DNA from: a virus
DNA length: 30,543 nucleotides
Strand: one strand, 5' to 3'
Virus record (IMG/VR): IMGVR_UViG_3300024520_000346
Location: 1-30,543 of that record
A program made the translations under genes and the position numbers. The notes under the pieces are model-generated. The model saw only the letters and a list, made by a program, of their open reading frames with translations. It did no database searches and was not told where the DNA came from. Shown piece after piece: positions 1,462 through 28,692 of the stretch; position 1 is the stretch's first letter, and every line of letters starts with the position of its first letter.

Positions 1462-4153
1462 TCTAGAGACTATTAAACAAGCTAACCCTATAGAGGCTGT
1501 GATCACCGAAACGGCCAAAGTCACCCTGGCTGGCAGGCGTGCCTATCTTAAAGCCACAGAGCACAGCAGTCTGGTGGTAGATGTGGATAAGCAGGCGTAC
1601 TGGTGGAACAGTAAGGGCCATCAGGGCGATGTGATCAGCTGGCTTGAAAATGTCCACGGTTATACATTTAAGCAGGCAGTTGAATGGCTGGCAGCCAGGG
1701 CAGGCATGGATCTAGACTGGGGTGCGGGATCGGATGACTGGCAGCGCACCAGAAAGCGCCAGGATGCGCTGGGCGCTGTGATGGCCTACTTCATAAAGTG
1801 CGCAGCCACTAGCGCTGCCTACGATGACTATCGAGCCAGCAGGGGCTGGGCGCTAGACACAGGCGCAGAGGCTGGGCTGGGCTGGTATGATGGTGATCGC
1901 CACTCACTACTGCGTGCTATGAAGATCGAAGGGCTGGCAGCGGATCATGATGTGGTTAAAGCTGCTGGCAGCATACCTGCTATGTCGCTAGTGTATGGCC
2001 ACAGCCTGGCCAGTCGGGTGCGCTACTTTAGCACCAGGGCCACAAAGCCAGGCGCAGTGCCCAAGATGTGGAACCCACCAGCCATACTATTGGGGGATCG
2101 GCGGCCATACTTTAATCACAAATATCAGAGCAGGGCAAAAAATGTGGTCATAGTCGAGGGCCAGGCTGATGCCATCACCCTGGCCCAGTGGGGAGTGGCT
2201 GCTGTGGCGCTGGCTGGGTGCAGTTTGGATCTAGTGCTGGCCAAGCAATTAGCAGGCCACGGCCAGATCTACCTGGGCCTGGATGATGATCAGGCTGGGC
2301 GCGCTGGCACAGGTGCGGCCGCTGCCCTACTGGGTGCTGGGGTGCGCGTGGTGACATGGCCACAAAAAGATCCCAATGATTGGCTAGTGAATGATCGTCC
2401 AGGGCGCAGCAAGGTGATTGAATTGTTACAGGATGCGCCACTGTATGTGATGTGGCTGGCTGGCCAGGTGGCTACTGCCCAGGGTGGCACTGCCAGGGTG
2501 GGTGCGGTGCGTGCCACAGTAGCAGAGGCCGTGCGGCTGGATGTTATTAGCTGGCGCATGAACAGATCAGATATCGCAGGCGCTATGGGGATCGGCCTAA
2601 CCGATCTAGATGCGATGGTGAAAGAACAGCGCCAGGTATCTGCCAGCCAGCCAGCTAACAAGCCAGCCAGCAAACCAGTGTCCAGCAGTGACGATGGCAC
2701 CCATGAGGCGATGATCAAGGCTGCGCTGTTAAAAGAAGAAGCCAGCCATCATGGGCACGCCAGGTGCCTGGCGCTGCTATATCCTAACAAGTTTTTATAT
2801 GTGAATGAATGGGGCTGGCTGCGCTTTAATGGCACCCACTGGCAGCGGGGGGCCGATCTAGGCGTGGAGGCCGCTGTTACTGATACACTCAAGCAGCGCG
2901 CACACGCAGCCATTGATCAGCGTGATTCATATGGGGAGCTACTCAAGCGCACATCGACAAATAGAGGCTGGATCACTGGCACCAGGGATCAGCTGCGAGT
3001 GATCGCACAGGCAGAGTATACTGATTTTGATCAGCAGGCGTGGCTGCTCAATTGTGCTAACGGGGTGGTAGATCTGCGCACTGGCCAGCTAATGGCCCAC
3101 GACAGCAGCACCCAGCACTTTACCTACTGCCTACCCACTAATTATGATCCAGATGCAGATTATAGTCAGTGGCTGATCTTCTTATGCGGGGTGATCGGCC
3201 AGGATGGCCTAAGTGTGGATAGCCAGGTGATCAAATATCTACAGCAGGCTGTGGGCTACAGCCTAACAGGAGAGACTAGGGAGGAGATCTTCTTTTATCT
3301 TTATGGGCCTACGCGCAGCGGCAAAGGCACATTTACTGAGACACTACTGGCGCTGCTGGGGGATCCACTGGGTAAAGAGGTAGACTTTGCGACCCTGACA
3401 GCAGATCGATCTGGCGACACAGATAATTTTGATCTGGCCCATCTGTTTGCTAGTAGATTTATCACAGCAGCAGAGAGCGGAAAATACAAGCGAATTAACG
3501 AGGCCAAGATCAAGGCCATGACTGGTGGCAACCAGGTGCGCTGCTCCTTTAAAAGAAAAGATCACTTTGAATACTGGCCCAGATTTAAAATCTGGATGAC
3601 GTCTAACTGGCCGCTTAATTTGGATGTTGACGACCACGCGGCGTGGGGCAGGGCGAACGTGATCAATTTTCCCCATAGCCACTTAGGCAGAGAGGACAAA
3701 GGACTGAAGCGGCGACTACGAGAGCCAGCACAGCTAGAGGGCGTGCTGGCCTGGGCTGTGGCTGGGGCCATTGCCTGGTATGCTAGCGAGGACGGGCTAG
3801 TAGCACCTAAAGCAATTAAGGCGGCTACAGCACAGCAGCGACTAGAGCAGGATCTGATCAGACAATGGATCGATGATTGCATGGCTGTGGCTGATCCTGA
3901 GTGTCGAGATGATGACTGTTTTATGACTAGTGGCGATCTGTACGCAGCCTTTCAAGCGTGGGCAGCCAGCCAGGGGATCGCACCTAATCAGATCAAAAAA
4001 GTGCGCTGGTTTGGGATCAGTCTGGCCAGCAAAGGCTATAGCCCAGCCAGGACTACCAGGGCTGGTAAGCAGGTGCGTGGTTATTGGGGGCTGCGGCTGC
4101 GGCCAGATGCGCCAGGCGTGCCTGCTTTGGCTCAGAAAGGGATGGTTTTATAA
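1451..4153 (+). CDS. Primase-helicase fusion (TOPRIM primase and SF3/D5 helicase)
   Basis: This is a 900-residue replication protein. Residues 1-80 resemble the DnaG CHC2 N-terminus in fold pattern (NPIEAVITE, GDVISWLENV, EAV-like EWLAARAG), but the usual Cys/His zinc ligands are absent. A TOPRIM region spans about 228-312, with VEGQADAI (catalytic Glu), LGLDDDQAG and DPNDWL. A D5_N-like segment precedes an SF3 helicase with Walker A GPTRSGKGT near 618, a DFATL region, and a sensor-like WMTSNWPLNLD near 715. It would prime and unwind DNA at the phage origin. I chose ATG 1451 because it puts the CHC2-like domain at the N-terminus; the frame is open back to 1373 without a ribosome site. Similar fusions occur in phages and P4-like elements. 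Confidence 0.9.
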   Translation: MKIDLETIKQANPIEAVITETAKVTLAGRRAYLKATEHSSLVVDVDKQAYWWNSKGHQGDVISWLENVHGYTFKQAVEWLAARAGMDLDWGAGSDDWQRTRKRQDALGAVMAYFIKCAATSAAYDDYRASRGWALDTGAEAGLGWYDGDRHSLLRAMKIEGLAADHDVVKAAGSIPAMSLVYGHSLASRVRYFSTRATKPGAVPKMWNPPAILLGDRRPYFNHKYQSRAKNVVIVEGQADAITLAQWGVAAVALAGCSLDLVLAKQLAGHGQIYLGLDDDQAGRAGTGAAAALLGAGVRVVTWPQKDPNDWLVNDRPGRSKVIELLQDAPLYVMWLAGQVATAQGGTARVGAVRATVAEAVRLDVISWRMNRSDIAGAMGIGLTDLDAMVKEQRQVSASQPANKPASKPVSSSDDGTHEAMIKAALLKEEASHHGHARCLALLYPNKFLYVNEWGWLRFNGTHWQRGADLGVEAAVTDTLKQRAHAAIDQRDSYGELLKRTSTNRGWITGTRDQLRVIAQAEYTDFDQQAWLLNCANGVVDLRTGQLMAHDSSTQHFTYCLPTNYDPDADYSQWLIFLCGVIGQDGLSVDSQVIKYLQQAVGYSLTGETREEIFFYLYGPTRSGKGTFTETLLALLGDPLGKEVDFATLTADRSGDTDNFDLAHLFASRFITAAESGKYKRINEAKIKAMTGGNQVRCSFKRKDHFEYWPRFKIWMTSNWPLNLDVDDHAAWGRANVINFPHSHLGREDKGLKRRLREPAQLEGVLAWAVAGAIAWYASEDGLVAPKAIKAATAQQRLEQDLIRQWIDDCMAVADPECRDDDCFMTSGDLYAAFQAWAASQGIAPNQIKKVRWFGISLASKGYSPARTTRAGKQVRGYWGLRLRPDAPGVPALAQKGMVL

Positions 4154-7098: not shown

Positions 7099-7811
7099 CC
7101 GATAAACCGATCTTATTCTCTGGTCAGTTAATTAGATCTATCTTGAGTGGAAAAAAAACGCAAACAAGACGCGTCATTAGGGGATTGTCCCAAGATGCAG
7201 ATTACCATGATGTTTATGCTCATACGGTGCGAGACAGGAAGGGGCCAGGTTATGGCTGCGAGGACACCCTCTGGGTGCGCGAGACATGGCAAACTGATCA
7301 AATATACGATGATGCCAAGCCATCGAAACTGCTTCATGGTAGCGCTGTGTGGTATCTGGCTGACGACACATCCAGAAATGCGCCACCAGGATTGTGGGCG
7401 CGAGGGCGCACCAGGCCCAGTATATTCATGCCTAGATGGGCTAGTAGGTTGTCACTACCTTTAATCAGTGTCCACTTTGAGCGGTTACAGGATATCACAG
7501 ATGCTGCTGCTGTGGCGGAGGGGGTCGATCCTCTTTTTTCCAAAGATGATATAAATGAGCCAAAATATAAACCAGAACTAGACCTACGACCTATGCCGTA
7601 TAAAAACTATATGTGGCACGGGTTTCACGGGGGCGACACAACAAAAGAACAGCCCAACAACTGGCACAATCATTATTCCTCCTATGCTTCACCTGTGGGA
7701 TCGTTTGCGTCCCTTTGGGAGAAAATAAACAGCCAGAGAGGCTATTCCTGGGCATCAAATCCCTGGGTTTGGGTGCTAGAGTGGAGCAACGTTATAAATA
7801 AGCAACCTTAA
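7095..7811 (+). CDS. ASCH/PUA-like phage protein
   Basis: This 238-residue protein shows the signature order of a widespread phage family: PILFSGQLIRSILSGKKTQT with RRVI near the start, LWVRETW near residue 60, RPSIFMPRWASRLSL, a VHFERLQDITDAAAVAEGV segment, then FASLWEKIN and NPWVWVLEW at the end. From memory this family is assigned to the ASCH/PUA-like superfamily and may bind RNA or modified nucleotides; its activity in phages is not established. It is complete relative to the family. The start overlaps the previous stop. It is the last gene before the structured RNA and terminator. Confidence 0.85.
   Translation: MTDKPILFSGQLIRSILSGKKTQTRRVIRGLSQDADYHDVYAHTVRDRKGPGYGCEDTLWVRETWQTDQIYDDAKPSKLLHGSAVWYLADDTSRNAPPGLWARGRTRPSIFMPRWASRLSLPLISVHFERLQDITDAAAVAEGVDPLFSKDDINEPKYKPELDLRPMPYKNYMWHGFHGGDTTKEQPNNWHNHYSSYASPVGSFASLWEKINSQRGYSWASNPWVWVLEWSNVINKQP
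7769..7798 (+). promoter_or_regulatory. Possible promoter for the structured RNA
   Basis: TATAAA at 7793-7798 is preceded, with an 18-base spacer, by TTGGGT at 7769-7774. A start point would fall around 7805, just before the structured RNA. The -35 matches the consensus only partly, and the element lies within the end of the ASCH-like gene, so it may be chance. Confidence 0.25.
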
Positions 7812-7823
7812 AAACAGGTGACA

Positions 7824-7859
7824 ATGAGCCAGCGGAGTGCTATACTGTTTTTTGACTAG
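7824..7859 (+). CDS. Possible 11-residue micro-ORF within the structured RNA
   Basis: ATG 7824, with AGGTGA four bases... upstream at 7816-7821 region, opens MSQRSAILFFD followed by TAG at 7857-7859. Its ribosome site is as good as those of real genes here, but it is paired in the predicted outer stem. Ribosomes on it would disrupt the inner stems, so it could act as a leader peptide. Its length makes chance likely. Confidence 0.25.
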   Translation: MSQRSAILFFD

Positions 7860-7907
7860 TCCCTCCTGACTAGCTCATTTTAAGGGAATTGCTACCCTTT
7901 CACCTGT

Positions 7908-7948
7908 AAGGCTACCAGCGCATAATTGCTGGTAGCCTTATTTTTTTT
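7908..7948 (+). terminator. Strong intrinsic terminator
   Basis: AAGGCTACCAGC (7908-7919) pairs perfectly with GCTGGTAGCCTT (7928-7939) around an 8-base loop, and eight T follow at 7941-7948. It ends the replication/accessory transcript, or the structured RNA, before the late promoter. Confidence 0.93.
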
Positions 7949-8179: not shown

Positions 8180-8208
8180 TTGACAAATGGCGGCCAATTG
8201 TCTAAAAT
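8180..8208 (+). promoter_or_regulatory. Near-consensus sigma-70-type promoter of the late operon
   Basis: TTGACA (8180-8185) is followed after exactly 17 bases by TAAAAT (8203-8208). The predicted start point (8213-8217) coincides with the ATG at 8215, so the mRNA would have essentially no leader. TTCTA-type inverted repeats lie directly upstream. Confidence 0.8.
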
Positions 8209-8214
8209 GGGACT

Positions 8215-8775
8215 ATGAGCACGCAGCAGAACGCCCTACCAGGTTTCAATGTTGAGGCCAGAAATTTATTAGATCAGAGCCACGAAGCAGAGCGGCGGCT
8301 GTTTACAGCCATGTTGGGCGATCTATCCTGGGGCGATCAGTTTGCTGCACTTATTGGCGAGGGCTGGCCGTGGCGAAAAGCGGCCTACATTGCCTGGGCT
8401 GCACTGCCAGCCACTTACAGGCAGCCAGCCACACTGGCTGATTTTGCTTCTATCATTGGCTTGAAAACGACTACAGCAATTCGAACCTGGCGCACTAAAA
8501 ATGCGGCTATAGATGCTGCTGTGGCTAAGTTGGCTATGGGAGCGCTGCTAGAAAGTGCGCCAGATGTGGTGGCAGCGCTGACCACTAGCGCCAGTGATCC
8601 CAGCTATAAGCACGCACCAGATAGAAAAGTGTACCTGGAAATAGCAGGTATTTATACACCGAAATCAAAACACGAATTATCACTAGATGATAATAGTACA
8701 ATGGAAAATATGAGCGATCAGGAACTGGCCAGGCTGGCTGGGCTGTCTGATGATGTTGAGGCTGGGGGATTATGA
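8215..8775 (+). CDS. terS: Terminase small subunit
   Basis: This 186-residue protein sits directly before the large subunit, sharing an ATGA overlap. A helix-turn-helix-like segment near residues 60-100 (PATYRQPATLADFASIIGL, then TTAIRTWR) fits DNA recognition by small terminases, which select the packaging site and feed DNA to the large subunit. The C-terminal third is polar and helical. There is no ribosome site before ATG 8215, and the promoter places the transcript start at this codon, so translation is probably leaderless. Function is assigned from position and the HTH-like pattern; sequence similarity was not tested. Confidence 0.8.
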   Translation: MSTQQNALPGFNVEARNLLDQSHEAERRLFTAMLGDLSWGDQFAALIGEGWPWRKAAYIAWAALPATYRQPATLADFASIIGLKTTTAIRTWRTKNAAIDAAVAKLAMGALLESAPDVVAALTTSASDPSYKHAPDRKVYLEIAGIYTPKSKHELSLDDNSTMENMSDQELARLAGLSDDVEAGGL

Positions 8776-28184: not shown

Positions 28185-28209
28185 AACGGCCGTTAAGTGG
28201 CCGTTTTTT
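28185..28209 (+). terminator. Intrinsic terminator of the late operon
   Basis: AACGGCC (28185-28191) pairs with GGCCGTT (28199-28205) around GTTAAGT; six T occupy 28204-28209. The stem is short but GC-rich. It lies about 260 bases after the holin-like stop and just before the next promoter. Confidence 0.75.
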
Positions 28210-28270: not shown

Positions 28271-28313
28271 GGCAGATTTTAACAGCGGCCAGGGGTCGCA
28301 AGAGGTGAAAGTT

Positions 28314-28535: not shown

Positions 28536-28692
28536 GCGCGTTTTTTATCGTTTGTTCCTGGCCATTATCGCTGGCCTGATCGCACCAGTGGCGCTGCCAC
28601 TAGCAGGCGATCTGGCAGGATCGTGGCTGTATTCTTTTATTTTTATTATTATCATATTGCCTGGGCTTTTTATCCTGGGCGCTAGGTTATAG
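28525..28692 (+). CDS. Small two-helix membrane protein, 55 residues
   Basis: ATG 28525 overlaps the end of the regulator gene and opens 55 codons to TAG 28690-28692. After a basic start (MINRRVFYR) there are two hydrophobic segments, LFLAIIAGLIAPVALPL and WLYSFIFIIIILPGLFILG. The TAG immediately precedes the AGGAGG of the next gene. Composition and packing support a real gene. It may be a superinfection-exclusion or lysis accessory protein; no family was recognised. Confidence 0.7.
   Translation: MINRRVFYRLFLAIIAGLIAPVALPLAGDLAGSWLYSFIFIIIILPGLFILGARL

Follow-up and report, generated by a model that had tools for sequence, protein, structure and literature searches.

Locus organization

The window, the whole 30,543-base virus record that we analyzed, carries its genes on the + strand (Table 1). 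We found strong intrinsic terminators at 7907-7948 and 28185-28204, along with strong promoters in non-coding DNA at 8180 and 28218. Given these positions, the layout reads as two operons, an early one running from 28218, probably via the ends of the record, to 7811 and a late one from 8180 to about 27,930. The last early gene has its stop codon 96 nt before the first terminator, which in turn lies upstream of the late promoter; that promoter is found about 240 nt downstream of the 7811-7948 element.

The spacer of the late promoter contains a near-perfect 21-bp palindrome, GACAAaTGGCgGCCAaTTGTC, which occurs once in the window and is probably a repressor operator. Since 6-7 nt separate the end of the -10 from the ATG of the terminase small subunit gene (terS) both in the window (8180-8215) and in the related phage L184 (1987-2024), the terS mRNA is predicted to be leaderless in both, with the +1 of the window expected on or next to ATG 8215. 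The start of the HTH gene, listed as GTG 28305, is more likely ATG 28314, because AGGTGA at 28303 would be its ribosome site.

Relatives were found via the major capsid protein (53-69% identity); TerS, TerL, and primase as single queries found none. The nearest relatives by terminase are L186 (TerL 55%) and L184 (TerL 49%). The best bacterial contig match of the capsid protein is a Chloroflexi MAG (L163, 63% identity), with weaker matches in Anaerolineales and Anaerolineaceae. Hence, the phage host probably belongs to Chloroflexota.

Table 1. Features of the window and short cassettes of related phages.
Feature	Position	Strand	Remarks
Primase and small early genes	up to 7811	+
5' masking arm, read-through early RNA only	7814-7853	+	predicted pairing
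Exact 8-bp outer inverted repeat ACAGGTGA/TCACCTGT	7814-7821/7900-7907
Inner repeats AATGAGC/GCTCATT and AAGGG/CCCTT	within 7811-7948
Candidate sRNA promoter	7818-7846	+	GTGACA, 17-nt spacer, extended -10 TGc-TATACT
11-codon ORF MSQRSAILFFD*	7824-7859	+	AGGTGA at 7816, 8 nt before ATG
Candidate small RNA, about 95 nt	7854-7948	+	start from predicted promoter, end at T8
Hairpin CTAGTC-CCTCCT-GACTAG, 6-bp stem	7856-7873	+	anti-SD loop CCUCCU
Second hairpin AAGGG-AATTGCTA-CCCTT	7882-7899	+
UUUCACCU	7898-7905	+	contains UCACCU linker
Intrinsic terminator, 13-14 bp stem, T8	7907-7948	+	also ends early operon
Late promoter TTGACA-17-TAAAAT	8180-8208	+	best promoter of window
Palindromic operator (probable)	8182-8202		in late promoter spacer
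terS; terminase large subunit	8215; 8772	+
Portal, major capsid (14410), tail genes	to about 27,930	+
Short cassette, L143	2640-2760
Short cassette, L143	4350-4270	-
Short cassette, L183	about 3320-3440
Short cassette, L151	about 3460-3560
Short cassette, L163	2400-2520

The sequence-only reading of this DNA had described an 8-bp outer stem, inner repeats, a CCTCCT hairpin sequence, and an AGGTGA site in front of an 11-codon ORF, and all of these are present as described; the terminator that it gave as 12 bp with T8 does have T8, with a stem of 13 bp (13-14). A CCTCC hairpin of this kind arose in only 5 of 20000 shuffles. The AGGTGA motif is also found before several likely genes of the phage, and the 11-codon ORF is possibly translated in the early mRNA. 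The outer-stem arms were rejected as a repeated operator; CAGGTGA is not confined to regulatory sites.

Folding of the long and short RNAs

We found that 7811-7948 folds better than all 200 of its dinucleotide shuffles with the terminator included (z -6.42), and the fold still beats 200/200 shuffles without it (z -3.43). In the minimum-energy fold, CCUCC pairs with GGAG at 7834-7837 and its core is more than 95% buried (P unpaired 0.01-0.04 at 7863-7866). Beyond this GGAG, which takes up CUCC of the loop, the 5' arm pairs ACAGGTGA with 7900-7907 and AATGAGC with the GCTCATT 3' of the CCTCCT hairpin. These pairings gain -13.2 kcal/mol compared to -3.2 ± 2.2 in arm shuffles, with 2 of 1000 as good. 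Hence, the predicted pairing suggests that the 5' arm masks CCUCC in the read-through RNA.

Forcing the CCTCCT hairpin in the full RNA costs about 4 kcal/mol (-50.9 vs. -55.0), so the earlier picture of one RNA that has the outer stem and also presents CCTCCT in a hairpin is not the preferred fold. In contrast, for RNAs that start anywhere in 7850-7855, the CCUCCU loop is predicted to be 100% unpaired, and UCACCU is predicted to form a single-stranded linker before the terminator.

This folding bears on whether the whole three-way structure might be cut from the early mRNA as a processed 3'-UTR small RNA that acts as a unit without a promoter of its own. Its 5' and 3' halves pair far above chance right after the stop codon, as such an RNA would, but the anti-SD (Shine-Dalgarno) core is buried in that form, the promoter-like site (below) would not be needed, and L184 has no comparable 5' arm pairing; we think processing of this kind improbable.

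The terminator, outer, and inner stems form together, all with P above 0.98; we found no mutually exclusive antiterminator structure and no competition between the terminator stem and the outer stem. This coexistence counts against a leader-peptide or RNA switch, the second idea of the sequence-only reading, by which the 11-codon ORF would control read-through into the late operon. Although the AGGTGA site of the ORF is of the kind used by other phage genes and sits within the outer stem, about 48 nt separate the end of the ORF from the terminator, and the late operon is served by a strong promoter of its own farther downstream. A switch is therefore very hard to credit.

Candidate internal promoter and small RNA

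Absent from the sequence-only reading is a promoter-like site at 7818-7846, within the 5' arms; its +1 is expected at about 7853-7854, at the base of the CCUCCU hairpin. The site ranks 6 among sigma-70-like sites on both strands of the window, and an equally good one appeared in 12 of 1000 cases when the segment was shuffled and in 8 of 200 when the entire intergenic stretch was. Its weak points are G as the first -35 base and the absence of the operator of the late promoter. A search for that operator (GACAA.TGGC.GCCA.TTGTC) gave a half-site with 2 mismatches, which is uninformative because there are 70 such matches in the window.

From this promoter, an RNA of about 95 nt would be made (about 7854-7948), consisting of two small hairpins and the intrinsic terminator and exposing complements of both phage SD forms: the first loop would carry CCUCCU and the linker UCACCU. 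Pairing with SD sites would block the start of translation on phage or host mRNAs. In the early read-through transcript, the 5' arm would fold back and bury CCUCC, so that only RNA from the element's own promoter would be active. We infer transcription from 7818-7846, as well as the stability of the RNA, its binding to ribosome sites, its targets, and its timing.

The element shares with trans-acting sRNA genes in general a promoter of its own (as predicted from the sequence) and a Rho-independent terminator, and with C-rich SD-targeting sRNAs an SD-complementary motif that is predicted to be single-stranded, here in both the CCUCCU loop and the UCACCU linker.

Ribosome sites, targets, and homologues

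CCUCCU and UCACCU are both parts of the established 16S 3' tail, AUCACCUCCUUUCU. UCACCU is complementary to the AGGUGAAA ribosome sites of the phage, and UUUCACCU is the exact complement of the octamer AGGTGAAA, whose 3 occurrences in the window are all at gene starts (20879, 28303, and 30296). The two ribosome sites that the sequence-only reading had named as targets, AGGAGG before 28702 and GGAGGT before 10451, are present at 28691 and 10441, and the longest exact match of the loop region, AGGAGGG, occurs once in the window, before gene 28702. However, predicted duplex energies at 38 phage gene starts averaged -18.4 kcal/mol compared to -18.2 kcal/mol in random windows; with no enrichment, these particular targets gain no support. 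Pieces of the 16S tail in the window RNA alone numbered 3 vs. 0.7 in its own shuffles (151/2000), which is not significant.

Searches by DNA and by the exact hairpin pattern found no sequence homologue of the element in phages, IMG/VR, or the relatives, and no Rfam family matched at its gathering score. The best sub-threshold Rfam match was Qrr RNA (RF00378) at 7856-7945, with 20.4 bits and an E of 0.29 (gathering score 50). A 17-nt match in L144 falls inside an ORF and was discarded as chance.

Cassettes in related phages

In L184, 187 nt separate the last early gene from terS, the place equivalent to that of the window element. We found that this stretch contains two copies of TTGACT-N18-TACACT, each holding the operator GTACA-N6-TGTAC, and that there are no other copies in the L184 locus (10.9 kb). 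The first copy begins within the last codons of the early gene and is followed by a short non-coding segment, with no notable start-to-stop reading frame, and then by a terminator; the second has the terS ATG 8 nt after its -10. That 48-nt segment contains both CCTCC copies of the locus, one of them within ACCTCCTTT, which is 16S-tail sequence. The promoter ahead of the segment repeats the late promoter of L184 together with its operator. L184 lacks the hairpin of the window, and its CCTCC motifs are unstructured.

Elsewhere in their genomes, L212 and L187, which are nearly identical in sequence (promoter TTGACA-16-TAAAAT), and L208 (promoter TGgTAGAAT) carry CCUCC within or next to a hairpin loop, followed by a terminator; L208 and L212 make a biased count because CCTCCT was the search motif that led to both. 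In L186, an HNH gene precedes the terminase gene and there is no promoter-CCTCC-terminator cassette, and most other relatives likewise lack a cassette at this place. In L143, a structured region upstream of TerS was rejected as an analogue (z -1.6).

A second, related small RNA gene is predicted at 9061-9210 of L212, about 1024-1175 of L187, and about 80-230 of L189, before the scaffold and capsid genes. It has a TTGACA-16-TAAAAT/TACAAT promoter and a hairpin with a CCCCU loop, then a terminator. Its upstream hairpin shows 6 compensatory pairs among the three sequences, two of which are almost the same, and the RNA differs from that of the window. These pairs suggest that structured RNAs are truly encoded in the phage family.

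Promoter-to-terminator cassettes of about 60-120 nt, with no room for a gene, also occur in L143, L183, L151, and L163 (Table 1); one of those in L143 is antisense, before terS, and that of L163 has the palindrome TTTCACATGTGAAA in its spacer. Directly before its stand-alone HNH gene, L186 (300-446) has the long-range pairings AAGCCCGTtGTGCA/TGCACgACGGGCTT and GTTGGCGCTCTTTA/TAAAGAGCGCCAAC and two overlapping alternative stems. L185 (4150-4250) has three tandem copies of about 34 nt (GTCGGAACAACCACTAAAGTGGTCACTACAAACG) immediately before terS.

Across the family, a strong promoter with its -10 30-150 nt upstream of the terminator precedes 10 of 87 distinct terminators (46 records), compared to 4, 2, 2, 2, 2, and 2 of 87 in six control windows (Poisson 1.6e-4, mean 2.33). 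Together with the position and strength of the promoter in the window and the parallel cassette of L184 with its duplicated promoter, this excess argues against the main rival explanation, that the region serves only as the early operon's 3' end, with a strong terminator and mRNA-stabilizing stem-loops, and that CCUCCU and the promoter-like site arose by chance. A plain 3' end would agree with a terminator lying shortly past the last early stop codon and ahead of the late promoter, with the very stable fold of the full-length RNA, and with the finding of neither homologue nor targets; we consider it possible but doubtful.

In 11 cassettes, a set that includes the window and L184, which had prompted the question, at least one 16S-tail piece is present in 6 vs. 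1.8 in shuffles (2/1000), and the matches total 15 vs. 2.8 (1/1000). The most enriched 6-mer before terminators is TCCTTT (9 vs. 1.1; p 2e-6, uncorrected for the 4096 words), partly because one locus has overlapping entries; for CCTCC by itself, the enrichment before all family terminators is not significant. The 16S-tail pieces in several cassettes raise the alternative that the RNA is a general decoy, which copies the 16S rRNA 3' tail, lowers SD-dependent initiation late, and favors a leaderless first late mRNA. This agrees with the terminase gene being predicted leaderless in the window and L184, but that start is itself a prediction, and the downstream late genes, which have clear SD sites, would suffer too. 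A decoy is quite unlikely.

Interpretation

The anti-SD loop that is predicted to be open only in the short RNA, the predicted internal promoter, and the cassettes of relatives all support a small RNA, whereas the lack of a homologue, the lack of target enrichment, and the lack of a cassette in L186 and most relatives weaken this reading. On balance, the region is probably a real sRNA gene, and we hold less surely that its RNA is an SD blocker. The whole proposal, of a phage sRNA gene between the early and late operons whose RNA blocks SD sites and is masked in early read-through mRNA, we give an even chance. A small RNA with an anti-SD loop was thus the better of the two ideas in the sequence-only reading.

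A broader and far more speculative claim is that, in a phage family probably of Chloroflexota type, small RNA genes, one of which shares the repressed promoter of the late genes, make RNAs whose exposed loops copy the 16S tail and switch translation from SD-led early and host mRNAs to late mRNAs at the early-late change, with fold-back silencing read-through copies; we consider it improbable as it stands.

Few phage sRNAs are understood, and among those that we found in the literature, none is from phages of Chloroflexota. If the proposal is true, a single piece of DNA yields two RNAs in which the anti-SD loop takes opposite states, a compact case that ties the choice of promoter to the control of translation at the early-late switch in a way that can be tested. 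Other phages can be searched for the same cassette signature of repressible promoter, anti-SD loop, and terminator.

Comparison with known systems

Qrr RNA resembles the candidate in having hairpins plus a terminator; however, the match in the window is far below the gathering score, and there is no Hfq or quorum-sensing context. The c4 RNA of phages P1/P7 acts at a ribosome binding site, with the complementary sequence probably in loops (PMC12197685). It is thus a phage-encoded RNA at ribosome binding sites, as predicted for the window, but it is a sequence-specific antisense RNA to one mRNA (ant), in other phages and with another structure. Our search of the text of that 2025 review of phage sRNAs found no C-rich class (PMC12197685).

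The best reading, by analogy, is a mode of action like that of the Gram-positive C-rich SD-blocking sRNAs, without homology. The LhrC sRNAs of Listeria monocytogenes use redundant CU-rich motifs in loops and a linker to pair with the SD and block translation (PMC4132741). Like the candidate, they are short RNAs with hairpins and a terminator and with motifs in loops and a single-stranded linker; unlike it, they are chromosomal, have five copies, the motif UCCC, and proven targets, and bear no sequence relation to it. IsrR of Staphylococcus aureus pairs with the SD through C-rich single-stranded hairpin loops (PMC9410917). The C-rich sRNAs of the IsrR and RsaE/FsrA type share C-rich loops and a Rho-independent terminator with the candidate, but they serve iron or metabolic control in Firmicutes and are not homologous to it, and in the window the motif is predicted to be additionally masked in the read-through transcript.
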